Assembly: GCF_000764535.1 (NCBI RefSeq)
Contig: NZ_CP009571.1
Coordinates: forward strand, 1,855,001-1,919,000
Length of the DNA: 64,000 nt
Origin: Sphingomonas taxi
GTDB taxonomy: Bacteria; Pseudomonadota; Alphaproteobacteria; Sphingomonadales; Sphingomonadaceae
Direction: 5' to 3'
The translations under genes and the position numbers were made by a program. The notes below the pieces were generated by a model. That model was not told the origin of the DNA. It saw nothing but the letters and a program-made list of their open reading frames with translations, and did no database searches. Positions within the stretch are counted from its first letter, which is position 1; each line of letters begins with the position of its first letter. Positions 49,507-64,000 of this stretch are shown in pieces.

Positions 49507-50148
49507 CTATTTCACCCGCCGCGCGGTGAGGATCGTCACCTTGGTCACCGGCACCTCGCCCTTGAACGCGCCGCGCAGCGTCGCGGTCGGCGACACCGGC
49601 GCGTCGAACACCTTCAGGATGGTATCCTGCCCCTCGACGACATGGCCGAACGCTGCATAGCCGAGATTGTCGCCCGGCTTGCTCGGGTCCGCATCGAACG
49701 ACGGCTGGTCGCCGATGCTGATCGTGAACTCGCCGCGCGCGCTGCCCGGTTCGAACCGCGCGGTCGAAACGGTGAAGTCGGTATGGCGGATCCCCGTCTG
49801 CGTCGTCGGCTCATGCTTGATCGGCGGCAGCAGCCGCTTGATCTCGCCATCCGGCCCGAATTGCACGAAGCCGAAATGGTCGCCGATCTTCACCGCGCGA
49901 TAGAAGCTCACCCCGTCGAGCCGCTTGCCGTCGACATATTTGAGGAAATTGCCCGCGCTGATCGGCGCATGCACAATATCCGCCTCGATCACGAACCGCC
50001 CGACGCTGGTCTCCAACGCGACGCGCGGCAGCGCCGGCGTCGGCTGCGGCGTGGGCACCGGTGCGGCCGCAGGCGCAGCCTGTTGCGCCGCCACCGGCAC
50101 CGCGACGAGGGACATGGCAAGCGTCGCGACCCGAACGAAACCGATCAT
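49507..50148 (-). CDS. exported cyclophilin-type peptidylprolyl isomerase
   Basis: A 213-aa protein with a signal peptide (MIGFVRVATLAMSLVAVPVAAQ), an Ala/Pro/Thr linker and a cyclophilin-like domain (VALETSVGRFVIEADIVHAPISAGNFLKYVDGKRLDGVSFYRAV ... FTISIGDQPSFD ... YAAFGHVVEGQDTILKV). Several canonical active-site residues of classical cyclophilins are changed (for example the FHR block is FYRAVKIGDHFGFVQFG), as in many bacterial periplasmic members, so activity may be weak. The ATG at 50148 follows GGGAG. It ends the gat operon, 16 bases after the barstar gene. Confidence 0.88.
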   Translation of the reverse strand: MIGFVRVATLAMSLVAVPVAAQQAAPAAAPVPTPQPTPALPRVALETSVGRFVIEADIVHAPISAGNFLKYVDGKRLDGVSFYRAVKIGDHFGFVQFGPDGEIKRLLPPIKHEPTTQTGIRHTDFTVSTARFEPGSARGEFTISIGDQPSFDADPSKPGDNLGYAAFGHVVEGQDTILKVFDAPVSPTATLRGAFKGEVPVTKVTILTARRVK

Positions 50149-50164
50149 CCCTGCTCTCCCCAAT

Positions 50165-50449
50165 TCAGACGAACCGCAACCGCACATCCCGCCCAAATTC
50201 CGCACGGGCATCGTCGAACACCTGCTCCGCACGCCGCACATAGGCAAGCTCGTCCGCCGGCAGGTCGCCGACATGGCGGACGATCACCTCGAACGGCGGC
50301 GCCAGATCGGCGATGCCGCCGCCGAGACAATCGAACAGCGCATCCAGATTGCCGCCGACCCACGGCTCCGCGCCGAGCCGCGGCAGCAGCGCGGCGTAGA
50401 AGTCCGCCCTGCTCCGCCAGCCGCGCCCGTCGAGCTCGATCGTCGTCAC
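50165..50449 (-). CDS. barstar-family (ribonuclease inhibitor-like) protein
   Basis: A 94-aa protein with the barstar fold pattern: MTTIELDGRGWRSRADFYAALLPRLGAEPWVGGNLDALFDCLGG, in which the G-x-N-L-D-A-L-x-D block is the RNase-binding helix region. The rest ends DDARAEFGRDVRLRF. The start is GTG at 50449, ten bases after the gatB stop. No barnase-like RNase gene is present nearby; orphan barstars are common and may guard against incoming toxins. Operon position suggests expression with gatB. Confidence 0.88.
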   Translation of the reverse strand: MTTIELDGRGWRSRADFYAALLPRLGAEPWVGGNLDALFDCLGGGIADLAPPFEVIVRHVGDLPADELAYVRRAEQVFDDARAEFGRDVRLRFV

Positions 50450-50459
50450 CGCGCGGCGG

Positions 50460-51929
50460 TCAGGCGAGCGCCTTCTTGAGCAGCTCGTTGACCACCGCCG
50501 GATTGGCCTTGCCCCCCATCGCCTTCATCGTCTGGCCGACGAAGAAACCGAACAACGTCTCCTTGCCGCCGCGATATTGCGCGAGCTGGTTGGGACTCCT
50601 GGCGATCACCTCGGCGATCACCGCCTCGATCGCGCCGGTATCGCTGGTCTGCTTGAGGCCGCGATCCTCGACGATCTTCGACGGCGCATCGCCCGTCTCC
50701 AGCATCACCTCGAACACCTGCTTGGCGAGGCTGCCCGACAGCGTACCGTCGGCGACCAGCGCGAGCAGCTCGGCGGCCTGCGCCGGCGACACCGGCGAAT
50801 CGGCGATATCGCGCCCGGTGCGGTTGAGCGCGCCGAACAGCTCCGACGTCGTCCAGTTCGCCGCCGCGACCGGCTTGGCCCCGGCATCGAGCAACGCATC
50901 GAACCAGCGCGCCGCCTCGACCTCGGCGGTCAGCACGTCCGCCTGATAGGCCGAGATGCCGAGCGATTCGTACCGCTTGCGCTTGGCGTCGGGCAGTTCG
51001 GGAAGGCTAGAGCGGCACTCGGCGAGGAACGCCTCCTCCAGTTCGAGCGGCAGCAGGTCGGGATCGGGGAAGTAACGGTAATCGTGCGCGTCTTCCTTCG
51101 AGCGCATCGAGCGGGTGGTGCCGCTCTCGACGTTGAACAGCCGCGTCTCCTGGACGATGCGGCCGCCGTCCTCGATCACCTCGACCTGGCGCTTCGCCTC
51201 ATATTCGATCGCCGCCATGACGAAGCGCACCGAATTGACGTTCTTCGTCTCGGTGCGCGTGCCCAGTTCGCCGCCCGGCTTGCGCACGGAGACGTTGACG
51301 TCGGCGCGCATCGAGCCTTCTTCCATATTGCCGTCGCACGAGCCGACGTAGCGCAGGATCGCACGCAGCTTGCGCAGATACGCCCCCGCCTCGGCCGGCG
51401 AGCGCATGTCGGGCCGGCTGACGATCTCCATCAGCGCGACGCCCGAGCGGTTGAGGTCGACATAGGAGCGCGTCGGATGCTGGTCGTGCATCAGCTTGCC
51501 GGCATCCTGCTCGACGTGGATGCGCTCGACGCCGATCGTCTTGGTCGCGTCGGGGTTCTTGTCGTCGGGGCTGATCTCGATCGCGCCCTCGCCGACCAGC
51601 GGATGATAGAGCTGGCTGATCTGATAGCCCTGCGGCAGATCGGCGTAGAAGTAATTCTTACGATCGAACCGCGACCAGCGATTGATCTGCGCGTCGATCG
51701 CCATGCCGGTGCGCACCGCCTGCCGGATGCACTCCATGTTCGGCACCGGCAGCATCCCCGGCATCGCCGCATCGACGAGGCTGACCTGCGTATTCGGCTC
51801 CGCCCCGAACGCAGTCGCCGCGCCCGAGAACAATTTGGCGTTGGAAGTGACCTGCGCATGGACCTCGAGGCCGATCACGACCTCCCACTCGCCGGTGGCG
51901 CCCTGGATGCGGTAGCTGGTCTCGGTCAT
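50460..51929 (-). CDS. gatB: Asp-tRNA(Asn)/Glu-tRNA(Gln) amidotransferase subunit B
   Basis: A 489-aa subunit binding the misacylated tRNA and phosphorylating its side chain. [14 protein letters not shown] is the usual start, followed by [30 protein letters not shown] and [16 protein letters not shown]. The C-terminal YqeY/tail domain reaches the end ([14 protein letters not shown]). The ATG at 51929 overlaps the vapC stop as ATGA, so its translation is tied to the toxin gene rather than to gatA as in a normal gatCAB operon. Confidence 0.97.
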
Positions 51930-52336
51930 GGATGCGTCTCTGGGGTGATGAGGGTAAGGTCTGGAAAATAGGTCGCGAGCCGGCGATCGCGGGTCATCAG
52001 CGTCGCGCCGAGCACCTGAGCGTGGCCGGCGATCAGGAAATCGGGCAACACGCGCTCCCGCTTGCCGCCGCGCCGACGATAGTCGCCGAAAGCCCGGCCA
52101 CCGGCAAGCGCCGCCTCGACCGTCAACGGCAGCACCTCGACGTGCAGGGTTTCGAGATCGTCGAGGACCATGTCCGCCCGGCATGATCCAGCGATGATTT
52201 CCGCCAGGACGATGTGGTTGCAGCCAAGGACATCCGATTGTTCCGCTGCAACGACGGTACGGCGCGACCATTCGGGTTCGTAGCCGGTGGCATTACTGAG
52301 CAGATCGGCGATGATGTTGGTGTCGAGCAGGATCAC
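51926..52336 (-). CDS. vapC: VapC-family PIN-domain toxin
   Basis: A 136-aa putative endoribonuclease. All four acidic PIN residues are present: D5 (LLDTNI), E46 (VLAEI), D99 ([10 protein letters not shown]) and D117 (MTRDRRL), so it should be active. The start is GTG at 52336, overlapping the antitoxin stop by GTGA. At the other end the stop overlaps the gatB start by ATGA. The target RNA is unknown; VapCs often cut initiator tRNA or rRNA. Confidence 0.93.
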
Positions 52337-52629
52337 GGCAGCGGTTCGTCACCGCGAATGTCGCGCACGAAGTCCGCTCCCGATTGCGTGAACTGCGGAC
52401 GTTCGCGGATCCGCGCAAAGAAGGCCGCAAGCCGCGCCTCCCGCTCGTCCGGCGTTTCGTCCGGCCAGCGCTTGCCCGGAACGACCACCGCCTCGCCGCG
52501 ATCGTTGATCCCGACATCCACCGGCCGCCCCGGCACCAGCCCGATCGCGTCGCGCACGTCCTTGGGGATCAGCACCTGACCCTTGCTCGTCATGTTCGTC
52601 GTCGTGCGCTTGTCGAGTAAAGTCGCCAT
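52333..52629 (-). CDS. vapB: AbrB/MazE-type antitoxin paired with VapC
   Basis: A 98-aa antitoxin. The N-terminal swapped-hairpin DNA-binding domain reads TTTNMTSKGQVLIPKDVRDAIGLVPGRPVDV; the C-terminal part is Arg/Glu-rich (PDETPDEREARLAAFFARIRERPQF) and should wrap the toxin. The ATG at 52629 has GGAGG six bases upstream; a GTG one codon earlier is less likely. A perfect palindrome lies 11 bases upstream of the ATG and probably binds the VapBC complex. Confidence 0.92.
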   Translation of the reverse strand: MATLLDKRTTTNMTSKGQVLIPKDVRDAIGLVPGRPVDVGINDRGEAVVVPGKRWPDETPDEREARLAAFFARIRERPQFTQSGADFVRDIRGDEPLP

Positions 52630-52640
52630 CACCCGCCTCC

Positions 52641-52660
52641 GGTGTTACCAAGGTAACACC
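52641..52660. promoter_or_regulatory. vapBC operator palindrome
   Basis: GGTGTTACCAAGGTAACACC: two exact 9-base arms around AA. It lies between the gatA stop (52676) and the vapB ribosome binding site, the place expected for an autoregulatory operator. Confidence 0.7.
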
Positions 52661-52675
52661 TCACGCGACGATCGT

Positions 52676-54172
52676 CTACCACCACGCCTGCGGCCGCGCC
52701 GTGAAGCCCGCCCGCTGCTCGATCGCCAGCCCGGCGTTCAGCACGCCCTGCTCGTCGAGCGGCTTGCCGATGATCTGCAACCCCAGCGGCAGTCCCTGTT
52801 TGTCGAGCCCGCCCGGCACGCTCATCGCCGGCAGGCCTGCGAGGCTCGACGGTACGGTGAACACGTCGTTGAGATACATGGCGATCGGATCGGCCGACTT
52901 CTCGCCGAGCGCGAACGCCGCCGACGGCGCTGTCGGCGTCAGCAGCACGTCGCACTGTTCGAACGCCCGCTCGAAATCGCGCGCGATCAGCGCCCGGACC
53001 TTCTGCGCCTGCGTGTAATAGGCGTCGTAAAAGCCCGCCGACAGCACATAGGTGCCGATCATGATGCGGCGCTTCACCTCGGGGCCGAAGCCGGCGGCAC
53101 GGGTCGCGGCATACATGTCCTGCAACCCCGCCCCGCCCCCGGATTCATTGGCGGGCAGCTCGCGCAGGCCGTAGCGCACGCCGTCATAGCGTGCGAGGTT
53201 GGACGAGGCCTCCGCCGGCGCGATGATGTAATAGGCCGGCAGCGCATATTTGGTATGCGGCAGCGAGACCTCGACGATCTCCGCGCCCGCGTCGCGCAGC
53301 CAGTCGATCCCCGCCTGCCACAGCGCCTCGATCTCCTCGGGCATGCCGTCGACGCGATATTCCTTGGGAATACCGACGCGCTTGCCCGCGAGATTGCCCG
53401 ACAACCCCTGTTCCCAGCGCGGCACGTCGAGCTGGAGCGAGGTCGCATCCTTGGCGTCGAACCCGGCCATCGCCTCGAGCAGGATCGCGCAGTCGCGCAC
53501 GTCGCGCGCCATCGGCCCCGCCTGATCCAGCGACGAGGCGAAAGCGATCGTCCCCCAGCGCGAGCAGCGGCCATAGGTCGGCTTGATGCCGCTGATCCCG
53601 GTGAACGCCGCCGGCTGGCGGATCGAACCGCCGGTGTCGGTGCCGGTCGCGCCCGGACACAGCCCCGCCGCCACCGCCGACGAACTGCCGCCCGACGAGC
53701 CGCCCGGCGCCAGCGGCGCGTCGCTGCCCGGCCGCCGCCACGGCGAGATCACGTTGCCGAACGCGCTGGTCTCGTTCGACGAGCCCATCGCGAACTGGTC
53801 CATGTTGAGCTTGCCGAGCATCCCCGCGCCGGCATCCCACAATTTCTGCGAGATCGTCGATTCGTAGGTCGGCACGAAGCCTTCGAGGATATGGCTCGCC
53901 GCGGTGGTCGCGACGCCGTTCGTGCAGAACAGGTCCTTCATCCCGATCGGCACGCCGGCGAGCGGCTTCAGCGTCTCGCCCGCCGCGCGCGCGGCATCGG
54001 CGGCGCGCGCCGCGGCCAGCGCATGATCGGGCGTCTCGACGAGGAAGGCGTTGAGCGGCTTGGCCTTCGCCACCTTCACCACGAAGGCGTCGGCGACCTC
54101 GACCGCGGAAAAAGCGCCGCTGCGCACCCCGTCGCGCAGGGCGGCGACGCCCAATTCGGTCAGCTCGGCCAT
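52676..54172 (-). CDS. gatA: Asp-tRNA(Asn)/Glu-tRNA(Gln) amidotransferase subunit A
   Basis: A 498-aa amidase-signature glutaminase. The catalytic triad is K79 (GVPIGMKD), cis-S159 ([11 protein letters not shown]) and S183 ([12 protein letters not shown]), with the 24-residue spacing expected for GatA. It releases ammonia from glutamine for GatB. Its ATG shares one base with the gatC stop (TAATG). Confidence 0.97.
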
Positions 54173-54474
54173 TATTCGATCACCTTGGGAACGGTAAAGA
54201 AGCCATGCTCCGCCTGGGGGGCATTGGCCATCAGCGCGTCGCGAATGCCGCCGCCGGTCAGCGGATCGGCATCGGTCACGTCCTCGCGCAGGCGCAGCTG
54301 GTTGGGGATGACCGCGGTCATCGGCTCGATGCCGGCGGTATCCACCCCTTCCAGTTGCTCGATCCAGCCGAGGATGTTGCTGAGTTCGGGGGCGAGGCGC
54401 GCGGCATCCTCGTCGGTGATCGCGATGCGCGCGAGCGCGGCGACCTTCTTCACGGTGGCGGTGTCTACGGACAT
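54172..54474 (-). CDS. gatC: Asp-tRNA(Asn)/Glu-tRNA(Gln) amidotransferase subunit C
   Basis: A 100-aa small subunit that stabilises GatA-Gat[46 protein letters not shown] is the standard N-terminus, and the C-terminus [22 protein letters not shown] is diagnostic. First gene of the operon gatC-gatA-vapB-vapC-gatB-barstar-PPIase; the promoter should be in the 131 bases before 54606. Confidence 0.97.
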
Positions 54475-54605
54475 GGCCTTGCGCCTATCAGAGGCGGCTC
54501 GGCGGATGCAACCTCCGCTTGCGTGACCGCGCGCAACCGTATGTTGCCAGTTCGCCGGGGCTCGTCCATCAGGCGGCCTCCCTGCCCTGCCCGGAACCCG
54601 CACGC

Positions 54606-55715
54606 TTGGCCCGCAAATTCCTCTACGTCTTCGCGTTCCTGATCGCGCTCGTCATCGCCGGCGCCTTCGCTTACCGGCTCTACGGCGTCGAGATCCTGCG
54701 CATGGCGCTGGTCCCGTCCGAGGCGTTCAGAGCGCAGCCGCGCGTCGACCCGAAGCGCTATGACGATCGCGCGATGTGGATCGCCCGCCCCGACATCCCG
54801 GCCAATCCCGCGCTCTGGACCCCCGCCGGCTACACGCCCGAGGCGAAGCCGAAGGCGGCGGTCTTCTTCATCCACCCCACCTCGTACATCGGCCGCGACC
54901 ATTGGAACGCGACGCTCGACGATGCCGAGACCAATGCGCGCGCCGCGATCTTCCTGCGCGGCCAGGCGAGCGCGTTCAACGCCGCCGGCGAGATCTGGTC
55001 GCCGCGCTACCGGCAGGCGACGTTCGGCGCCTTCCTGACCAGCGTCGCCGACGCCAATCGCGCGCTCGACCTCGCTTATGGCGACGTCGCCGCCGCCTTC
55101 GCCACCTTCGTCGGGCAGGTCGATCCCAAGCGGCCGATCATCCTCGCCGGCCACAGTCAGGGCGCGCTCCACCTCACCCGCCTGCTCCGCGAACAGATCG
55201 CCGGCAAGCCGATCGCCAAGCGCATCGTCGCCGCTTATGTCGTCGGCTGGCCGGTGTCGAAGACCACCGATCTTGCCGCGCTCGGCCTGCCCGAATGCAC
55301 CCGCGCCGATCAGGCGCGCTGCCTGCTGTCGTGGGAGAGTTTCGCCGAGCCCGCCGACCCGCAGCAGATCACCGACGTCTACGACCAGACGCAGGGGTTC
55401 GACGGCCGCCCGCGCCGCGACACGCCGCTCGTCTGCACCAACCCGCTGACCGGCACCGCCGACGCCGTCGCCCCCGCCGCCGCCAACCAGGGCACGCTCT
55501 ACCCCTCGGCCGATCTCAGCAGCGCGACGATCGCGCCCGGCAAGGTGCCCGCGCGTTGCGGCCCGCGCGGCTTCCTGCTGATCGGCGAGCCGCCCGAGGT
55601 CGGCAGCTACGTGCTCCCCGGCAACAATTACCACGTCTACGACTACAGCCTGTTCTGGGCCAACGTCCGCGCCGACGCGCTGCGCCGGCTCGCCGCATTC
55701 GGCGCGAAGCGATGA
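54606..55715 (+). CDS. DUF3089 alpha/beta-hydrolase-like protein
   Basis: A 369-aa protein with an N-terminal membrane anchor ([24 protein letters not shown]) and an alpha/beta-hydrolase-like domain with the nucleophile elbow GHSQGA ([16 protein letters not shown]) and [16 protein letters not shown] earlier. The family, DUF3089, has no assigned substrate. No ATG occurs near the anchor; I propose TTG at 54606 (LARKFLYV). An ATG at 54519 would add 29 Pro/Arg-rich residues. The stop overlaps the ruvX start as ATGA. Confidence 0.85.
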
Positions 55716-56173
55716 TCACCCCCGACCGCGCCGTCTTCCGCGAGGCGCTGCCGGCGGGCGGGCGGCTGCTCGGCCTCGACCTCGGCAGCAAGACGATCGG
55801 CACCGCGCTGTGCGACGCCGGCTGGAGCTTCGCCAGCCCCGCCGAGCTGATCCGCCGCAGCAAGTTCACCAAGGACAAGGCGGCGCTGGTCGCGCTCGTC
55901 ACCGCGCAGCAGGTGAAGGGGCTGGTGCTCGGCCTCCCGCTCAACCTCGACGGTAGCGAGAGCCCGCGCAGCCAGTCGACCCGCGCCTTCGCGAAGAATT
56001 GCGCCGACCTCGGCCTGCCGATCCTGCTGTGGGACGAACGCTGGTCGACGGTGGCGGTGGAGCGCACGATGATCGAACAGGACATGAGCCGCGCCAAACG
56101 CGCCGAGCGGATCGACAACCTCGCCGCGGCGCACATCCTGCAAGCGGCGATCGACGCGCTGGTGATGGTTTAG
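55712..56173 (+). CDS. ruvX: putative pre-16S rRNA nuclease / Holliday junction resolvase (YqgF)
   Basis: A 153-aa RNase H-fold protein. D23 in [15 protein letters not shown] starts the active site; [35 protein letters not shown] and [12 protein letters not shown] complete the YqgF signature. It takes part in 16S rRNA 5' maturation and possibly recombination. Coupled by ATGA to the DUF3089 gene. It is the last gene before the AT-richer island. Confidence 0.95.
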
Positions 56174-56478
56174 GGGGGGAGGTCCGGTCTCGACTGATCC
56201 AGTCTGTTCCAGTCGGCGGAGAACTGTGGATCAGCGATGGTCATTCGCTATATCCTGACGGCGCATCCCGTCAGAAAACAGGCCTGCTATCCAGATAGCA
56301 TGAGCTGAACAGCCCGCGCATTGACTTCGAAACCCGAATTTTGTCGGGACCGCGCGAACGGGGCTTCCGCTCGCCGCGCTCTCGATATAGATACGCGCGA
56401 TGATCACGCTTCCAGTCCTGGCCACGATTGAACATTGTCCCTTCTAAAAACGGGGAACTCAAGACGCATAGGTATAAA
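56174..56478. other. gap before the NTPase island
   Basis: 305 bases without a supported gene. It holds an inverted repeat CTGATCCA (56194-56201) / TGGATCAG (56227-56234) and a direct repeat TCCAGTC twice near 56199-56213. Base composition falls from about 56270 onwards. No transposase remnant or att-like tRNA sequence is visible. Confidence 0.5.
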
Positions 56479-58539
56479 ATGGAAGACGTGAAATTTACGG
56501 AAGTCGCTACCGCTATGTCGCGGCCCACGATGGCTACCCGCGGCAACAATCTTACGGTCGCGAGCATGCCGACACCGTTCGTGCCGCCGAATTTCGAAAG
56601 TGTAGACGGGCGCGACCTTAGCGCGTGCGAAGTGATCCTTATTAAAGCCTCGGCCGCCGTCGGTAAGTCGACTCTTGCGCGGGCTATATCAGCGACACAG
56701 GGCATTCCAATTCTGGATCTTGCCCATACGCCGGTGGCAACGGGATCGCTGATCGGCATCTTGAACGACTATCAAGGTGCTATTTCGCCTGTATCAGAGT
56801 TTCATGCCGGCGCGGCGCCGATATTAGTAGACGCCCTAGATGAGGGTCGCCTTCGTTCTGGCGACAACGGCTATCTCAGCTTTATAGAGTCTTCCGCGCA
56901 ACTCATTCTTCAGGACCGACGTCATCGCAAGCCGAAACTGATGCTGCTTGGCCGAGAAGAAGCGATAGCCTACGCCGAGATGTATCTTGTAGATGCCGGC
57001 GTCGAAGTAACAATACTGAACGTCGGATATTTCGACGAGTCTGGCGCCAAGGAACTTGTCCACGCGTACGCGACTGCATCCGCTAAGCAAGATTCGCAGT
57101 ATACAATTCATAAGAAACCTGCAGACGATCTGGTCGAAACTTATTTTCGAAAAATAGCGGACGCGCTCAGCATACCGCACGACCAACTTTGGGATAACCC
57201 ATCCGGGAAAAGCTTTGCAGGATACGCTCCGGTGCTTGCAGCGATCGGAGCGCTGCTGCCCGAAGTCGAAAATTTTGCGGAAGCACAGAACAAACTAGAA
57301 GATGTGCGCCTCAATAGTGCTTGGAGCGTAATCGAGAACGTCCTCGATTCGATAATTAATCGGGAACAGGGCAAGGTTTCGACGCAACTTTCCAACGCGG
57401 GCGTCATCGACCCCCAAGGTTTGCTGTACTCTCCCCAAGAACAAGCCGCGCTGTTACTTCAACATGTACAAGGCCTCGCGCTGACCGGCACCTCGAAAAT
57501 CAGGCTAAACGCATCCGATACGGTAAAGTATTCGGATCAGGTGAAGCGATTTCTGCCGGAACATCCGTTTGTTAAAGATGGCCGCTTTAGTAACGAGGTT
57601 ATCGCCTCTTACGTTGTTGCGAGGGCAATAGACGCGGGCTGGAAGATTCAAGACCACAATATCCTTCGGCAGCTTGCACGCCAACCGTTTTTGTGGCGTT
57701 CACTTCGGGGGACTTTAGCAGGCGATGCTATCTTAGAAGGGGAGTACTTGGGATACGTCCTGACCTCGTTCTGGAATGACCCCTTGACTAAGGACGAGCG
57801 CGTAGAGATCACCGATAAGGAAGATGACGCGGATGCTTTCGTTACGATAGACGTTCTCGAGGATTCGCTAACTTTCAAGGCAACTACGCCCGTTTATTTT
57901 TTTGGCCAAATACGGAATGTCACCGTAAACACAGATGAGCCATTTACCATGGTCGGCATCGGTGAAGGCTCTTCCCAAGCCTTTTCATTTAGCGGGAACA
58001 ATAACGTAACCGGAAGCATGGTAGATTTGCGCGCTACCGAGATCCATTTACGCAATGGACGTACATGGCTCGATGCGGATATCGTTCCTGCGGCTGGCCA
58101 ATTATCACTGATCATAGCCGACGGTGTCGAGTATGGTTGGAGTGCACAACTATCAAATGTTTACCCGTTCAGCATATTCCCCAGTACGATTAATGCGGAC
58201 GAAGTAGAGAATCGTGATCGGCTTGCCGGACTTCTTTCCGACCTAGCTGCTCGCTCTCCCGTCGGCACATCGTTAATGCTACACGCCGATTACTCTGTTC
58301 CCGAGAACGATTATCTTCGAACTATATTTTCGGAGTATGGCCACGATTTCAAGACTTTGATGACGACTTTGGTCGGGGAAGGTTGGGCCAATAGCGCACC
58401 GATGCAAGTAAAAGGACCTCCGAAAGTTAGAGTCCGATTTAAAGCGTCGTTCGGCCAGCTACGCGATGCAGCGCTGAAGCCGGCCCAAGATGGCGAGCTG
58501 AACACTTTGATTGCTTTGCTGCGACAAAGGATAGTTTGA
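56479..58539 (+). CDS. STAND/NACHT-like P-loop NTPase of unknown function (horizontally acquired)
   Basis: A 686-aa protein unlike any family I can name. Walker A is A-S-A-A-V-G-K-S-T (57-65), Walker B with the DALDE form typical of STAND ATPases is ILVDALDEG (115-123), and LMLLGREEA (154-162) sits where sensor 1 of NACHT ATPases lies. A helical middle (about 200-420) is followed by a beta-rich region (about 455-570, with FFGQIRNVTVNTDEPFTMVGIGEG). No transmembrane segment. Sample 60-base lines are 47-53% G+C against about 70% in pyrB. The ATG at 56479 is weakly supported by AGG; TTG at 56428 would add 17 residues, and ATG 56515 is also possible. A solitary sensor or defence protein is the leading guess. 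Confidence 0.75.
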   Translation: MEDVKFTEVATAMSRPTMATRGNNLTVASMPTPFVPPNFESVDGRDLSACEVILIKASAAVGKSTLARAISATQGIPILDLAHTPVATGSLIGILNDYQGAISPVSEFHAGAAPILVDALDEGRLRSGDNGYLSFIESSAQLILQDRRHRKPKLMLLGREEAIAYAEMYLVDAGVEVTILNVGYFDESGAKELVHAYATASAKQDSQYTIHKKPADDLVETYFRKIADALSIPHDQLWDNPSGKSFAGYAPVLAAIGALLPEVENFAEAQNKLEDVRLNSAWSVIENVLDSIINREQGKVSTQLSNAGVIDPQGLLYSPQEQAALLLQHVQGLALTGTSKIRLNASDTVKYSDQVKRFLPEHPFVKDGRFSNEVIASYVVARAIDAGWKIQDHNILRQLARQPFLWRSLRGTLAGDAILEGEYLGYVLTSFWNDPLTKDERVEITDKEDDADAFVTIDVLEDSLTFKATTPVYFFGQIRNVTVNTDEPFTMVGIGEGSSQAFSFSGNNNVTGSMVDLRATEIHLRNGRTWLDADIVPAAGQLSLIIADGVEYGWSAQLSNVYPFSIFPSTINADEVENRDRLAGLLSDLAARSPVGTSLMLHADYSVPENDYLRTIFSEYGHDFKTLMTTLVGEGWANSAPMQVKGPPKVRVRFKASFGQLRDAALKPAQDGELNTLIALLRQRIV

Positions 58540-58543
58540 TTCG

Positions 58544-58568
58544 GAGCGCCGGGTAGCGTCCGGCGCTC
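58544..58568 (+). terminator. hairpin after the NTPase gene
   Basis: GAGCGCCGG and CCGGCGCTC pair around GTAGCGT four bases past the stop, followed by TTACTTAG. The stem is strong but the U tract poor. Confidence 0.55.
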
Positions 58569-58701
58569 TTACTTAGTATTTGATATTTAGTCAGCCATGT
58601 GCGGGGATGACGTACGTGCTCGAGGAGTTGACAGCGGGTAGATAGCCCCCCTCTGCTACACCGCTGACGCTATTTCGCATCGTGACCCGCATCATCACCA
58701 A

Positions 58702-58733
58702 AACGGAAACGATCAGGCCGGATCGTTTCCGTT
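58702..58733. promoter_or_regulatory. perfect 13-bp-arm palindrome upstream of pyrB
   Basis: AACGGAAACGATC, a 6-base spacer, and its exact complement, about 100 bases before the pyrB start. It may be a hairpin in the pyrB leader or an operator. The rest of the 290-base gap shows no gene. Confidence 0.55.
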
Positions 58734-58835
58734 CAAGTGTCCATCTTGTCCACGTTGCCCCAATCCCGCCACAATTAGATGGCGGCTCCCTCCCCGCTTG
58801 CCCCCACCCGCCCTGCGCGCTAACCGGCGCGCTTG

Positions 58836-59819
58836 ATGAACCGTTCGGACCACCGCCCCGCTGCCCTGATCCAGGGTGGCGCCGTCTTCCCGCACCGGCA
58901 CCTCACCGGCATCGACGGGCTCCAGCCGCATGAGATCGCCTTTCTGCTCGACGAGGCGGAAAGCTGGGTCGCGGCGAACCGCAGCCATGCCGCGCCCGAC
59001 AAGCGGCTCGCCGGCCTCACCCAGATCAACGCGTTCTTCGAGAACAGCACGCGCACGCTGCTGAGCTTCGAGATCGCCGGCAAGCGGCTCGGCGCCGACG
59101 TGGTCAACATGCACGCGGCGCAGTCGAGCGTGAAGAAGGGCGAGACGCTGATCGACACCGCGCAGACGCTCAACGCGATGCGCGCCGACGTCATCGTCAT
59201 TCGCCATATGGCGAGCGGCGCGGTGCGGCTGATCGCCGACAAGGTCGATTGCCCGGTGCTCAACGCCGGCGACGGCCGCCACGAACATCCGACGCAGGCG
59301 TTGCTCGACGCGCTCACCATCCGCCGCCGCAAGGGCTCGATCGCCGGCCAGCGCGTGGTGATCTGCGGCGACGTGCTTCACAGCCGGGTCGCGCGCTCGA
59401 ACATCCTCGCGCTCACCGCGCTCGCCGCCGAGGTGCGCGTCTGCGCGCCATCGACGCTGATGCCCGCCGGGATCGAGCGGATGGGGGTGACGCCGTTCAC
59501 CGATTTCGACGCGGCGCTGGTCGGCGCGGACGTGGTGATGATGCTGCGCGTCCAGAACGAGCGGATGGCGGGCGGCTATATCCCGTCGAGCCGCGAATAT
59601 CGGCTGCGCTACGGGCTGACGCCGGAACGGCTGGCGAAATTGCCCGACGCGCTGGTGATGCATCCGGGGCCGATGAACCGGGGGGTGGAGATCGATTCGG
59701 TGGTGGCGGACGGGCCGCAATCGGCGATCACCGAGCAAGTGGAGATGGGCGTGGCGGTACGGATGGCGTGTCTCGACGTGCTCACCCGGCGCGCGCGCGG
59801 CGTGGAGGGCTGGGCATGA
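58836..59819 (+). CDS. pyrB: aspartate carbamoyltransferase catalytic subunit
   Basis: A 327-aa enzyme of pyrimidine synthesis. The carbamoyl-phosphate loop is F-E-N-S-T-R-T (about 48-54), followed by the SSVKKGETL loop, [13 protein letters not shown], and [12 protein letters not shown]. No regulatory PyrI is present; instead a PyrC-like gene overlaps its stop by ATGA, as in PyrB-PyrC' holoenzymes. The ATG at 58836 lacks a clear ribosome binding site. Confidence 0.97.
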
Positions 59820-61033
59820 GCGTGATCGCCTTCCTCGATGCACGGCTCGCCTGCCCCGTCGCCGGCGTCGCGCCGGGCGGGCTGCTGGTCCGCGACGGCG
59901 TGATCGTCGCGCGCGGCCCGTTCGAGCTGCCCGGCGATGCGGTGACGGTCGATTGCGGCGGCAAGCTGCTGGCGCCGGGGATCGTCGACCTCGGCGTGTT
60001 CAAGGTCGATCGCGACGCCTGCCGCGCCGGCGGCATCGTCCGCGTCGCGCTGATGCCCGACGGCAATCCGGTGCTCGACGATCCCGGCGTCGTCCAGCGC
60101 GCGGCGCTGATCGGCAAGCCCGATCTGTGGATCCACCCGATCGCCGCGGCGACGCAGGGCCTCGCCGGCACCGACATGGCGGAGATGGCGATCTGCATCT
60201 CGGCCGGCGCGCGCGCGGTGGGGACGGGGCGCGGCTGGATCGCCGACAGCGGCGTGATGCTGCGCGTCCTGTCCTATGCCCGCGACCTCGACATCGCGGT
60301 GGTCGCGCATGGCGAGGACGGCGCGCTGACCGCAGGCGCGGTGGCGACCGATGGCGAGACGGCGACGCGGCACGGCCTGCCCGCCGCGCCGGCGGTGGCC
60401 GAGGCGCTGGCGGTGGCGCGCGACCTGATGCTCGCTGAGGAAAGCGGCGCGCGTCTCCACATCCGCCAGGCGACGACCGCGGCGGCCTTCGACCTGATCC
60501 GCGCCGCCAAGCGCCGCGGCGTGCGCGTCACCTGCGGCATCACGCCCGCGCACCTCCATCTGTCCGACATCGCGATGAGCGACTTCCGCACCTACGCCCA
60601 TCTCTCGCCGCCGCTGCGCAGCGAGGGCGACCGGCAGGCGGCGCGCGCCGCGGTGGCGGACGGGACGATCGACGTCCTGTCCTCGGGCCACGACCCGCAC
60701 GGGCCGGAGGCGAAGCGCCTGCCCTTCGTCGATTCGGCGGCGGGCATGGCGGGGGCCGAGACGCTGCTGCCGCTCGGGCTGCTGCTGGTGCGCGACGGCG
60801 TGCTGACGCTCGAGCGATTGCTGGCGATGCTGGCGGTCAATCCGGCGCAGGTGCTCGGGCTCGACACGGGGACGCTGGAGGTCGGTAAGCCCGCCGACCT
60901 GATGCTGTTCGACCCAGACACGCCGTGGCAGGTCGACGGCGAGGCCTTCGCCTCGGCGGGCAATACGCCCTTCGACGGCCTGCCCGTCCAGGGCCGTGTG
61001 CTCAGGCTGTGGAAGGCCGGGCGCGAGGTCTGA
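59816..61033 (+). CDS. dihydroorotase-like protein with degenerate metal site (PyrC')
   Basis: A 405-aa amidohydrolase-fold protein. The first metal motif PGxxDxHxH reads P54-G-I-V-D58-L-G60-V-F62, so both His are lost; the late Asp of TDHAPH is replaced by Gly291 (SSGHDPHG). H165 (VAHGEDG) and H215 (LHIRQAT) remain. Such proteins are catalytically dead but needed for assembly or stability of PyrB in pseudomonads. Coupled to pyrB by ATGA. A working dihydroorotase should be encoded elsewhere. It abuts the convergent SPOR gene with no gap (TGATCA holds both stops). Confidence 0.9.
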
Positions 61034-62290
61034 TCAGCGCGCCGCCACCTGCACCGGCGCGCGCAGCCATTGCGCGATCCGGTCGCCGGCCTCGCGGCGG
61101 ACGAAGCAGGCGCCGCCCTCGGCGCGATAGCGGCCGCACAGCCGGTCCGCCTCGGCGCGGCTGAACCCGCCCACCGACACGCGGTAGAGCGACCCCTGCG
61201 CCGCCGCGACCATCGTCCCGGTCGGCCGCTGCCCGGTCAGCGCGGCGAAGCGTCGCGTCGCCTCGGTCCACCCGGACTTGGCGACCGCGACATTGCTGTA
61301 CGCGCCGATCTGCACATACCAGTCGCCTGCAACCGCCGCGGGTACCTTCAGCGCCACCGCCTGCCGTACCGGTGCGACGGCGGCGCGCAGCATCGTCGGC
61401 AGCGGCTGCGCCACCTCCTGCGGCGGCGCGAACACGACGCGGGTGAACGGCGAGGCCGGCGCCGGCGTCTCGACCGCGGCGGTGCGTACGGGCGCCTCCT
61501 GCGTCGGCATCACCGGCACCGGCGCGTTGAGCGCCAGCGCGACCGGTCGCCCGCCGTCGGCGCCGACGGTCACGCCGAGCAGGCTCGCCACCTGATCCGA
61601 CGCCGCCCGCGGCTGCGCGAACGCCGCCCATTGCTCCAGCCGCGCATCGACATCGGCAGGCGACATATCCGCCGCCGCGGCGACCCGCGCCATCGCCCAT
61701 TGACCGGCGAGCGCATAGCTCAGCGCCAGATTCTGCCGCAGCTTGGCGTCGGCACCCGGTTCGCGCGCCGCCGCGTTGAGCGTCGCGATCGCCGCGGCCG
61801 GATTGCCGGCGAGCGCGGTGGCGAGGCCGAGGTCGCCGACCGGAATGATCGCCGCGTTGCGCGCCAGCGTCGCCTGCGCCGCCGACCAGTCGCCGGTGGC
61901 GATCTCCGCCAGCGCGAGGCTCAGCGCCGCCTTGCCGTTGCCCGGCGTCAGTTCCAGCACCTCGGCGAAGGTATCGCGCGCCGACGCGAAGCGCCCCGCC
62001 TGCTGATACGCCTGCCCCAGCACCAGCCGATAATCCGCATTGCGCGGCGCCAGCGCCACCGCCGCTTCGGCGCGTTCGATCGCGCTGACGGGATCGCGTT
62101 TGGCCAGCGCCCGCGCGGCGCCGTCGGCGTGCCGCTCCGCGGTCCGCGCGACGATCCGGTCGTTGCGATCGCTCGCCGCGGCGATCCGCCCGCTGCCGCC
62201 GGTACATCCGACCACCGAGCCGCCGAGCACCAGCGCCGACAGGCCGAAGGTCAGGACCAGCCGCGGGGTGGAAGAGATCACGGCGCTCAT
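61034..62290 (-). CDS. TPR/SPOR-domain lipoprotein
   Basis: A 418-aa protein. The signal ends with SVVGC (C29), a plausible lipobox. Tetratricopeptide-like helices cover about 45-200 (AIERAEAAVALAPRNADYRLVLGQAYQQAGRFASARDTFAEVLELTPGN). A Pro/Ala linker leads to a C-terminal SPOR domain (DWYVQIGAYSNVAVAKSGWTEATRRF ... GSLYRVSVGGFSRAEADRLC), which binds denuded septal peptidoglycan. The start overlaps the ParA stop by ATGA. A division- or envelope-related role is inferred. Confidence 0.88.
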   Translation of the reverse strand: MSAVISSTPRLVLTFGLSALVLGGSVVGCTGGSGRIAAASDRNDRIVARTAERHADGAARALAKRDPVSAIERAEAAVALAPRNADYRLVLGQAYQQAGRFASARDTFAEVLELTPGNGKAALSLALAEIATGDWSAAQATLARNAAIIPVGDLGLATALAGNPAAAIATLNAAAREPGADAKLRQNLALSYALAGQWAMARVAAAADMSPADVDARLEQWAAFAQPRAASDQVASLLGVTVGADGGRPVALALNAPVPVMPTQEAPVRTAAVETPAPASPFTRVVFAPPQEVAQPLPTMLRAAVAPVRQAVALKVPAAVAGDWYVQIGAYSNVAVAKSGWTEATRRFAALTGQRPTGTMVAAAQGSLYRVSVGGFSRAEADRLCGRYRAEGGACFVRREAGDRIAQWLRAPVQVAAR

Positions 62291-63006
62291 GCTCCGACCA
62301 CCCGGCGGCCGAAGCCGCCCGTCGCCGGGCGCGGCCCGAAGCCGCCGCCATGCACCGTCGGCACGCTGAACACGGTACGGCGGAAATTGGTCTCGAGCCG
62401 CCCGGAAATGTAGCTCCACAGCTGCGCGATCTCGGCCGCCGACCGGCCGCCGGGATCGACCTCCATCACCGTACGGCCGTCGGTCATCGCCGTGGCGTAA
62501 TCGAGGCGCTGGTGGACGATCACCGGCGCGACGCTGCCATGTTGCGCCAGCGCCACCGCGGCGTCGGCGTTGATCGGCGCGTCGGGCGTCGCGGCATTGA
62601 GGACGAAGATCAGCGGCTTGCCCGCGCGCTGGCACAGGTCGACGGTCGCGCCCACCGCGCGCAGATCGTGCGGCGACGGCCGCGTCGGCACGACGACCAG
62701 CTCGGCGACGGCGATGACGCTCTGGATCGCGAGCATGTTCGCCGGCGGCGTGTCGATCATCACCAGCTTGACCCCCTGCTGGCGCAGCATCTCAAGATCC
62801 GCCTGGAGCCGCGCGACGACGGTCTGCGCGAAGGCGGGATAGGCCGTGGTACGATCGCCCCACCAGTCGGCCAGCGTACCGTGCGGATCGATGTCGATGA
62901 GGACCACCGGGCCATGCCCGGCGAGCTGTGCCTGCACCGCGAGATGTCCGGACAATGTCGTCTTGCCCGAACCACCCTTTTGCGATGCCATCGCGAGAAC
63001 GCGCAT
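62287..63006 (-). CDS. ParA/MinD-family ATPase, orphan
   Basis: A 239-aa deviant-Walker ATPase: MASQKGGSGKTTLSGHLAVQAQ at the start, DIDPHGTLADWW and MIDTPPA as switch regions. No parB is adjacent. A Phe/Arg/Gly-rich C-terminal tail (RRTVFSVPTVHGGGFGPRPATGGFGRR) is unusual for ParA and may be a partner-binding tail. Coupled to the SPOR lipoprotein by ATGA and divergent from another SPOR protein, so it may position envelope proteins rather than DNA. Confidence 0.9.
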   Translation of the reverse strand: MRVLAMASQKGGSGKTTLSGHLAVQAQLAGHGPVVLIDIDPHGTLADWWGDRTTAYPAFAQTVVARLQADLEMLRQQGVKLVMIDTPPANMLAIQSVIAVAELVVVPTRPSPHDLRAVGATVDLCQRAGKPLIFVLNAATPDAPINADAAVALAQHGSVAPVIVHQRLDYATAMTDGRTVMEVDPGGRSAAEIAQLWSYISGRLETNFRRTVFSVPTVHGGGFGPRPATGGFGRRVVGA

Positions 63007-63156
63007 AGGCCCCCTTCAAACTGTGCCGTCAAATCGTAAGCGAACCTGACAGGACAGCGCTAACAGGCGGTTAATGTAGCGCTTTGCGCGATGTGGCTTT
63101 GCCTGCGCGCGCGTCCGGGGCATGATGCGGCCGATATGGTGAAGAGGGTGACGAGG

Positions 63157-64000
63157 ATGCGGAGTACCGGTTGGATGGCGGTTGCGCTGGTGGCTTGCAT
63201 CGCCGTTGCCGCGCCGGCCGGGGCGCAGGCGGTCAAGGCGGGCGTCGACGCCTGGACCCGCGGTGACTTCGCCGGCGCGGTGGCGCAATGGCGCGGCCCG
63301 GCGGTCGCGGGCGACGCCGATGCGCAGTTCAACCTCGGCCAGGCATACAAGCTCGGCCGCGGCGTGCCGCTCGATCCGGCGCTGGCGGAAAGCTGGTTCC
63401 GCAAGGCGGCGCTGCAAGGCCATCCGCAGGCCGAGGACAATTACGGCTTCGCGCTGTTCCAGGCCGGTCGCAAGGCGGAGGCCGCGCCGTGGCTGGAGAA
63501 GTCGGTGCGGCGCGGCGAGCCGCGCGGCCAGCTGGTGCTCGGCACGATGCTGTTCAACGGCGACGGCGTGCCCCGCGACTATCCCCGCGCCTATGCGCTG
63601 ATGACGATGGCGTCACAGGCGGGGCTGAAGTCGGCTTCGGAGACGCTGGCGCAGATGGACCAATATATCACGCCCGCCGACCGTCAGCGCGGCACGGCGC
63701 TGGCGCAGCGCTACGCGACCGACCTGCGCGCCGGTCCGCCCGCCGCCGACCGCGGCGGCATGATGGCGGCAGAGGCGACCGCCCCGCGTCGCGGCACCGT
63801 TCCGATCGCCACCCCGTCGAAGGCACCGCCGCGCCAGAAACCGGCCCCCGCCGATCTGTCGCCCGACCGCCCGGTCGCCGATCGCATCGTGGCGCATGAG
63901 AAACGCCCCGCCCCGCCCCGCCCCGCGGCGGCGCCCGCCGGCGGCGCGTGGAAGATCCAGCTCGGTGCATTCAGCACGCAGGCGAACGCGCAGACGCAAT
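63157..64000 (+). CDS. Sel1-repeat/SPOR protein, 3' truncated
   Basis: Open to the window end. From the ATG at 63157 (GAGGG about 10 bases upstream) a signal peptide MRSTGWMAVALVACIAVAAPAGAQA leads to Sel1-like repeats (AQFNLGQAYKLGRGVPLDPALAESWFRKAALQGHPQAEDNYGFALF; GTMLFNGDGVPRDYPRAYALMTMASQAG), then a Pro/Ala-rich linker and the first strand of a SPOR domain (AWKIQLGAFSTQANAQTQ) where the window stops. An in-frame ATG at 63136 is possible. It faces the ParA/SPOR unit across a 150-base shared promoter region. Confidence 0.85.
   Translation, partial: MRSTGWMAVALVACIAVAAPAGAQAVKAGVDAWTRGDFAGAVAQWRGPAVAGDADAQFNLGQAYKLGRGVPLDPALAESWFRKAALQGHPQAEDNYGFALFQAGRKAEAAPWLEKSVRRGEPRGQLVLGTMLFNGDGVPRDYPRAYALMTMASQAGLKSASETLAQMDQYITPADRQRGTALAQRYATDLRAGPPAADRGGMMAAEATAPRRGTVPIATPSKAPPRQKPAPADLSPDRPVADRIVAHEKRPAPPRPAAAPAGGAWKIQLGAFSTQANAQTQ

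Follow-up and report, generated by a model that had tools for sequence, protein, structure and literature searches.

An AT-rich gene lies alone between ruvX and pyrB

In the 64,000-nucleotide stretch of the Sphingomonas taxi genome that we analysed (the window), a gene for a 686-residue protein, predicted to be a NACHT/STAND-type NTPase, lies on the plus strand at 56479-58539 (stop codon included) between two housekeeping genes on the same strand, ruvX upstream (55712-56173; NCBIfam model RuvX TIGR00250, E value 3.3e-28) and pyrB downstream (58836-59819; NCBIfam model aspartate carbamoyltransferase PyrB NF002032, 2.8e-117). A first-pass annotation made from the letters alone had described an AT-rich open reading frame (ORF) between these flanks, and the observation is confirmed overall. 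Its extent, given there as 56270-58570, has to be shortened: the start favoured by an alignment of 89 family sequences is the ATG at 56479, the stop codon ends at 58539, and the first ~200 bases of the longer interval are upstream DNA. The low G+C content, then estimated by hand, also holds. The gene has 51.8% G+C (53.6% at third codon positions), compared with a mean of 68.3% (standard deviation 3.5, minimum 54.0%) in 720 overlapping segments of 2061 bp each, sampled across 20 stretches of this genome; no segment is as low as the gene. No mobility gene was noticed beside it, in flanks that had no separate transposase scan. ARAGORN found no tRNA in 50000-64000, a Rfam search of 56100-58900 gave nothing at E≤1, and a promoter and terminator scan gave no excess over shuffled sequence.

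The protein belongs to a family with invariant switch residues

A search of ~5.8 billion proteins, in which 7995 candidates were scored, identified 217 proteins related to the 686-residue protein at E≤1e-3. Among the 120 of these that were listed, which include the window protein's own cluster, lengths are mostly 680-715 residues and 119 have no Pfam domain; the sole Pfam-bearing relative (P0120) is a GatB joined in frame to a family member. Judged from its sequence relatives, the ORF encodes a real, conserved protein. The 89-sequence alignment has 35 invariant columns, including G62, K63, D118, D121, E122, R159, R295, Q322, and H362, and all of these are also invariant in a 25-sequence alignment in which identity with the window protein falls as low as 18%.

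The Walker A (ASAAVGKST, residues 57-65; 56647-56673, plus strand) and Walker B (DALDEGR, residues 118-124; 56830-56850, plus strand) motifs were read in the protein and in the alignments, and their first-pass positions, like that of an LLGRE segment that contains R159, were correct. The Walker A motif is atypical in that Ala replaces the first Gly; this position is Ala in 81 and Ser in eight of the 89 sequences and Ala in all 25 of the second alignment, making it a family hallmark. The two elements expected of STAND/NACHT Walker motifs, GK[ST] and the acidic Walker B motif, are present throughout (G62, K63, D118, D121, and E122 in 89/89 and 25/25 sequences). A His-Pro-Phe triplet (residues 362-364; 57562-57570, plus strand), with H362 in 89/89 and 25/25 aligned sequences, falls at what we take to be the place of the STAND winged-helix histidine.

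The predicted fold is that of a NACHT module with an unusual tail

The AlphaFold model of the protein is confident (predicted local distance difference test score of 91) and its best structural matches in the PDB are the NACHT modules of NLRP3 and NLRC4, over approximately residues 17-408. In animal NOD-like immune receptors (NLRs), the NACHT ATPase serves as the molecular switch. In the predicted structure of the window protein, a NACHT fold runs on into a winged-helix-type module. Specifically, the model comprises a NACHT ATPase with a helical and winged-helix-like module (residues 1-408; 56479-57702), a beta-rich, weakly beta-helix-like domain (residues 433-574; 57775-58200), and a C-terminal domain with weak resemblance to a winged helix (residues 580-686; 58216-58536), all on the plus strand. 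By sequence, a search of the PDB returned nothing below E 0.02, and Pfam gave no match to the 686-residue protein at E≤10, models for helix-turn-helix (HTH) and tetratricopeptide repeat (TPR) domains included. Among 25 family members compared with Pfam at E≤1, nSTAND3 matched six (best 2.3e-7) and NACHT five (best 1.6e-4), and general P-loop models matched more members. A search with the C-terminal half alone (residues 430-683 of the relative P0015; 5099 candidates) recovered only P0015 itself. Profile searches recognised no effector domain in the 686-residue protein, in keeping with the first-pass statement that no effector motif is visible. We conclude that the protein is predicted to be a STAND/NACHT-type NTPase, as that annotation had proposed, based on the fold and, more weakly, on the profile matches of other members; a structural match to a metabolic or transport ATPase had been named as grounds for abandoning the proposal, and the best matches are NLR NACHT modules.

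The ruvX-pyrB site is interchangeable

Among 295 genomes of the genus, the own genome alone has a close copy of the gene, and only seven have any match: the own genome, G454 (32% over residues 43-431), and five with short P-loop matches. Four of 397 genomes of the bacterial family have any match, namely the own genome, G337 (28% over residues 49-384), and two with matches in the P-loop region. Homologues of native composition at the same place across the genus, which had been named beforehand as evidence against acquired cargo, were therefore not found. We read the ruvX-pyrB interval in 59 other genomes of the genus, leaving out G406, which has no true pyrB; ruvX lies upstream on the same strand in 48 of them, and in the other 11 it does not do so in the stretch examined. 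The gap measures 41-80 bp, and is thus empty, in 14 of the 48. Because the remaining 34 have 340-3336 bp of varied content there, we conclude that the site tolerates many insertions, mostly native in composition.

The closest relative by PyrB (G411, 99%) has the most AT-rich interval of the 34 (49.6% G+C; next 57%). Homology between the window and this genome breaks off with the stop codon of ruvX (56173) and restarts at 58648, and the segment in between (56174-58647, not assigned to a strand; 52.5% G+C) is without counterpart in the relatives compared. At the same site, G411 has a gene (L070 1675-3174) that matches the PADLOC model HEC-04 over its full length (E 1.7e-218). HEC-04 is found near full length at E<1e-190 in four of the 295 genomes; further matches in the genus comprise one partial at a contig end, one weaker (3.9e-60), and others that either are short or have far poorer E values; none comes from the own genome. 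Of the six best HEC-04 loci, the one in G411 alone is flanked by ruvX and pyrB within 1.5 kb. According to the accessible text of the source, HEC-04 protects E. coli from T4 and T5; a homologue, IbfA, is described there as interfering with a phage of Salmonella (PMC12111858). The alternative tenant of the site in the sister lineage is, therefore, a rare gene with reported anti-phage activity, which is suggestive support for a defence role but not proof of it. With the site empty in some relatives and occupied by HEC-04 in G411, the first-pass picture of one-gene cargo at a tolerated site is borne out, and the interval offers a simple spot to look for exchangeable one-gene cargo in the genus.

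Two further features of the window were noted. An inverted repeat (AACGGAAACGATC...GATCGTTTCCGTT, 58701-58735) lies upstream of pyrB, inside the stretch common to the window and G411. Between gatA and gatB (51926-52632, minus strand), a PIN-type gene, VapC-like by eye only and without NCBIfam match, and an AbrB-type antitoxin gene (TIGR01439) form a small accessory pair within a housekeeping cluster.

Relatives elsewhere are AT-rich and scattered

Scanning 84,980 species genomes turned up 29 loci, which belong to several phyla. The composition of the gene and its flanks was compared in 20 of them and in G454; the gene has the lower G+C in 19 of these 21 loci (mean difference -12 points; Wilcoxon p 4.8e-6). 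Left out were the short forms L005, L008, L009, and L010 described below (-0.015 to +0.023), the plasmid loci L125 (-0.009) and L126 (-0.194), and L085 (-0.092, approximate coordinates), as well as L007, L011, L013, L029, and L030, for which no value was computed.

Defence-type neighbours lie within ~6 kb of the gene in at least five of 23 loci scanned. They include a type II methylase (4.4e-160) and a restriction enzyme (7.1e-99) at L014, PD-Lambda-2_B (1e-155) at L033, a DruM-like cytosine methylase (1.5e-77) directly upstream of the gene at L016, a DNA methylase together with a kinase resembling mad6 and PD-T4-6 at L006, and an AAA_21 ATPase at L024. PADLOC families at E≤1e-10 numbered 171 for 141 neighbour proteins (taken from 191 frames, with shorter frames and loci L005, L008, and L009 excluded) and 61 for 141 control proteins, with 25 matches listed for each set. 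Of note, this control (141 of 179 selected proteins, excluding two long L163 frames, L172-L175, and part of L171, with region L156 removed after a DruM-like methylase turned up inside it) is weak, as it is anchored on ThiF-type genes and 22 of the 25 matches listed are to E1-E2 models, and we do not claim statistical enrichment.

Matches were found in three of 72,556 plasmid records. In L125, the Acidithiobacillus plasmid CP084174.1, the relative overlaps the end of a multiubiquitin-ThiF-small-protein operon, with dcm and a very-short-patch-repair gene ~5 kb further, and the genes follow one another in the same order on a related Acidiphilium plasmid. An Alistipes plasmid carries a gene annotated as putative phage abortive infection protein 2.4 kb from the relative, and a MobA/MobL relaxase gene lies 0.7 kb from the relative in G454. 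In both L125 (5810-10007) and L139 (NZ_CP041721.1, 7810-10510), Multiubiquitin, ThiF E1, small protein, and NACHT family member form an overlapping row adjoining a WYL regulator; the small protein in L139 is DUF6527. The ubiquitin-like operon was rejected as a general partner: Multi_ubiq occurs in three of 23 genomes or records, adjoining the gene only on the plasmid and off-locus in two genomes. A conserved partner gene was likewise rejected, as none runs through the family among the all-against-all BLAST matches listed, in which neighbour ORFs in common are those of Nitrobacter-type loci, pairs among the Streptomyces loci L017, L018, and L032, and the single pairs L018-L031, L021-L028, L009-L027, and L010-L011.

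Solitary insertion just downstream of a housekeeping gene, as in the window copy behind ruvX, is also seen in P0120 (behind gatB, as in-frame fusion) and around 3537 in L023 (probably behind lepA). In the latter locus, from Propylenella, a 1344-residue frame raised the possibility of an N-terminal effector fusion; this was rejected, as G+C by codon position over its first ~600 residues is that of a different frame, and these residues look like lepA translated in the wrong frame. A viral or phage origin was also rejected, no relative having been found in 50,697 phage records or in IMG/VR (pattern search plus tblastn, by which none of 169 pattern stretches was confirmed). In a viral structure library, the model matched an NLR-named siphovirus protein (E 3.3e-6) and a BCS1-like protein (1.2e-4); the other matches listed are weaker and mostly have AAA+-type names, with some nameless.

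Nitrobacter and its kin carry NACHT-only short forms

In seven loci of Nitrobacter and its kin (L005, L007-L011, L013), the frame stops near residue 408, just past the winged-helix-like part. Six of them end alike (one cut at the 5' side by its contig) and one is broken. The DNA examined at these loci has no trace of the C-terminal half (best E 0.26). The Walker A, Walker B, and His-Pro-Phe motifs are retained in the five short forms checked, and the ratio of nonsynonymous to synonymous substitution rates (dN/dS) is 0.12-0.23 in the ten pairs among these five. Composition is native in all four short forms for which G+C was measured, and there is synteny among several of the loci. The low ratios indicate that the short form is under purifying selection, and it appears to have been domesticated. 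Because the short forms keep their motifs, low dN/dS, native G+C, and synteny, the NACHT part seems to remain useful where the tail is missing. This argues against an output that comes from the tail alone, and against the idea that the C-terminal winged helix mainly serves to bind DNA. A selected natural version cut after residue ~408, together with the invariant switch residues, makes it possible to test directly which part of an effector-less NLR provides the output.

A single-gene immune sensor is the favoured explanation

The motifs, the confident NACHT-like model, the patchy lone-gene occurrence, the foreign composition, and the interchangeable site are shown by the analysis. We consider it fairly probable that the gene is a horizontally acquired, self-contained, single-gene NACHT immune sensor against phages, and we infer both the defence role and the mechanism of output. 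In our working model, the fast-evolving C-terminal half, beta-helix-like and winged-helix-like, would detect a signal of infection, either directly or via a host protein. Binding of the signal would free an ADP-locked NACHT module (Walker A/B, R159, H362), which would then take up ATP and oligomerise. Because no effector domain was recognised, either the oligomer itself or a host partner would provide the output, with growth arrest or death as the outcome. Phage as the trigger, nucleotide-driven oligomerisation, and this outcome are modelled on the STAND class as described in the accessible parts of two sources (PMC12931631, PMC12169576). The first-pass interpretation as a whole is partly supported.

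We also considered that the protein is a MalT-like STAND transcription regulator, in which an NTPase switch and a beta-rich ligand sensor would act through a DNA-binding C-terminal winged helix. We regard this as unlikely, because no operon adjoins the gene for it to control, a metabolic regulator would not usually be foreign in composition and patchy in occurrence, the C-terminal winged-helix domain lacks a basic character (net charge of +1 here, with a family mean of -0.2), Nitrobacter retains forms without it, and neither a LuxR-type HTH nor a TPR-like sensor was matched by Pfam. Slightly less probable still is a non-immune accessory ATPase with a stress or proteostasis role, carried as neutral cargo. 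The syntenic, native-composition short form of Nitrobacter indeed suggests that at least one lineage uses the NACHT part stably and in a core-like manner; however, the full-length family behaves as mobile cargo, and in the nearest relative the site is taken by a gene with a reported defence function. An interference factor against incoming non-phage DNA such as plasmids is improbable: STAND proteins can respond to many foreign signals, and relatives occur on plasmids and, in G454, close to a relaxase gene, but plasmid carriage fits a mobile phage-defence gene equally and nothing indicates plasmid targets.

Returning to the single-gene immune sensor, a more far-reaching version is, in our opinion, possible but doubtful: the family could be an unnamed class of bacterial NLRs in which the NACHT oligomer is the output and the beta-helix/winged-helix tail the fast-evolving sensor, travelling as one-gene cargo behind housekeeping genes, recruited to a plasmid ubiquitin-like conjugation operon, and, in Nitrobacter, domesticated as a core gene that keeps only the NACHT part and lacks the sensor. 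The family is widespread and compact, its genes mostly stand alone, and its set of switch residues is invariant.

Comparison with known systems

No paper on the family was found in the literature covered (PMC7159879 and PMC13092281 among the sources, which were accessible in part; sequence is not searchable there and most subscription journals fall outside its scope). In the accessible text on bNACHT clade 14 (bNACHT02, bNACHT12), these proteins, like the window protein, have a NACHT module without a discernible effector domain (PMC12169576). Compared by description and not by sequence kinship, clade 14 has a short C-terminal SNaCT domain, whereas the window protein has ~250 residues that are beta-helix- and winged-helix-like; no SNaCT model was named among the profile matches, in libraries not confirmed to contain one. 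Which part of an effector-less NLR provides the output is a question that applies to clade 14 as well.

Avs5 (AVAST type 5) and other Avs proteins combine a SIR2 or nuclease N-terminus with a helical-repeat C-terminus. The window protein has neither and is only 686 residues long; ~50 residues precede its Walker A motif, and its modelled C-terminus is beta-rich plus winged-helix-like. A PADLOC scan of the window protein to E 10 gave no Avs profile and only PDC-S01 at 0.018, and the 25 members at E≤1 matched seven families, none named Avs, in a database that presumably contains Avs models. PDC-S01 matches five of the 25 members (best 4.1e-4) and, at 3e-84, one control protein. We conclude that the window protein is not an Avs by profile and architecture; the likeness that the first-pass annotation drew to Avs proteins stands for mechanism only.

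The predicted fold resembles the NLRP3 and NLRC4 NACHT modules over approximately residues 17-408, at ~11-14% identity, but the model has neither a death-fold domain nor leucine-rich repeats. HEC-04/IbfA, an ABC-type ATPase with TOPRIM in the accessible text (PMC12111858), is unrelated as a protein; yet, at the identical ruvX-pyrB site of the nearest relative, it is likewise a solitary, AT-rich ATPase gene.
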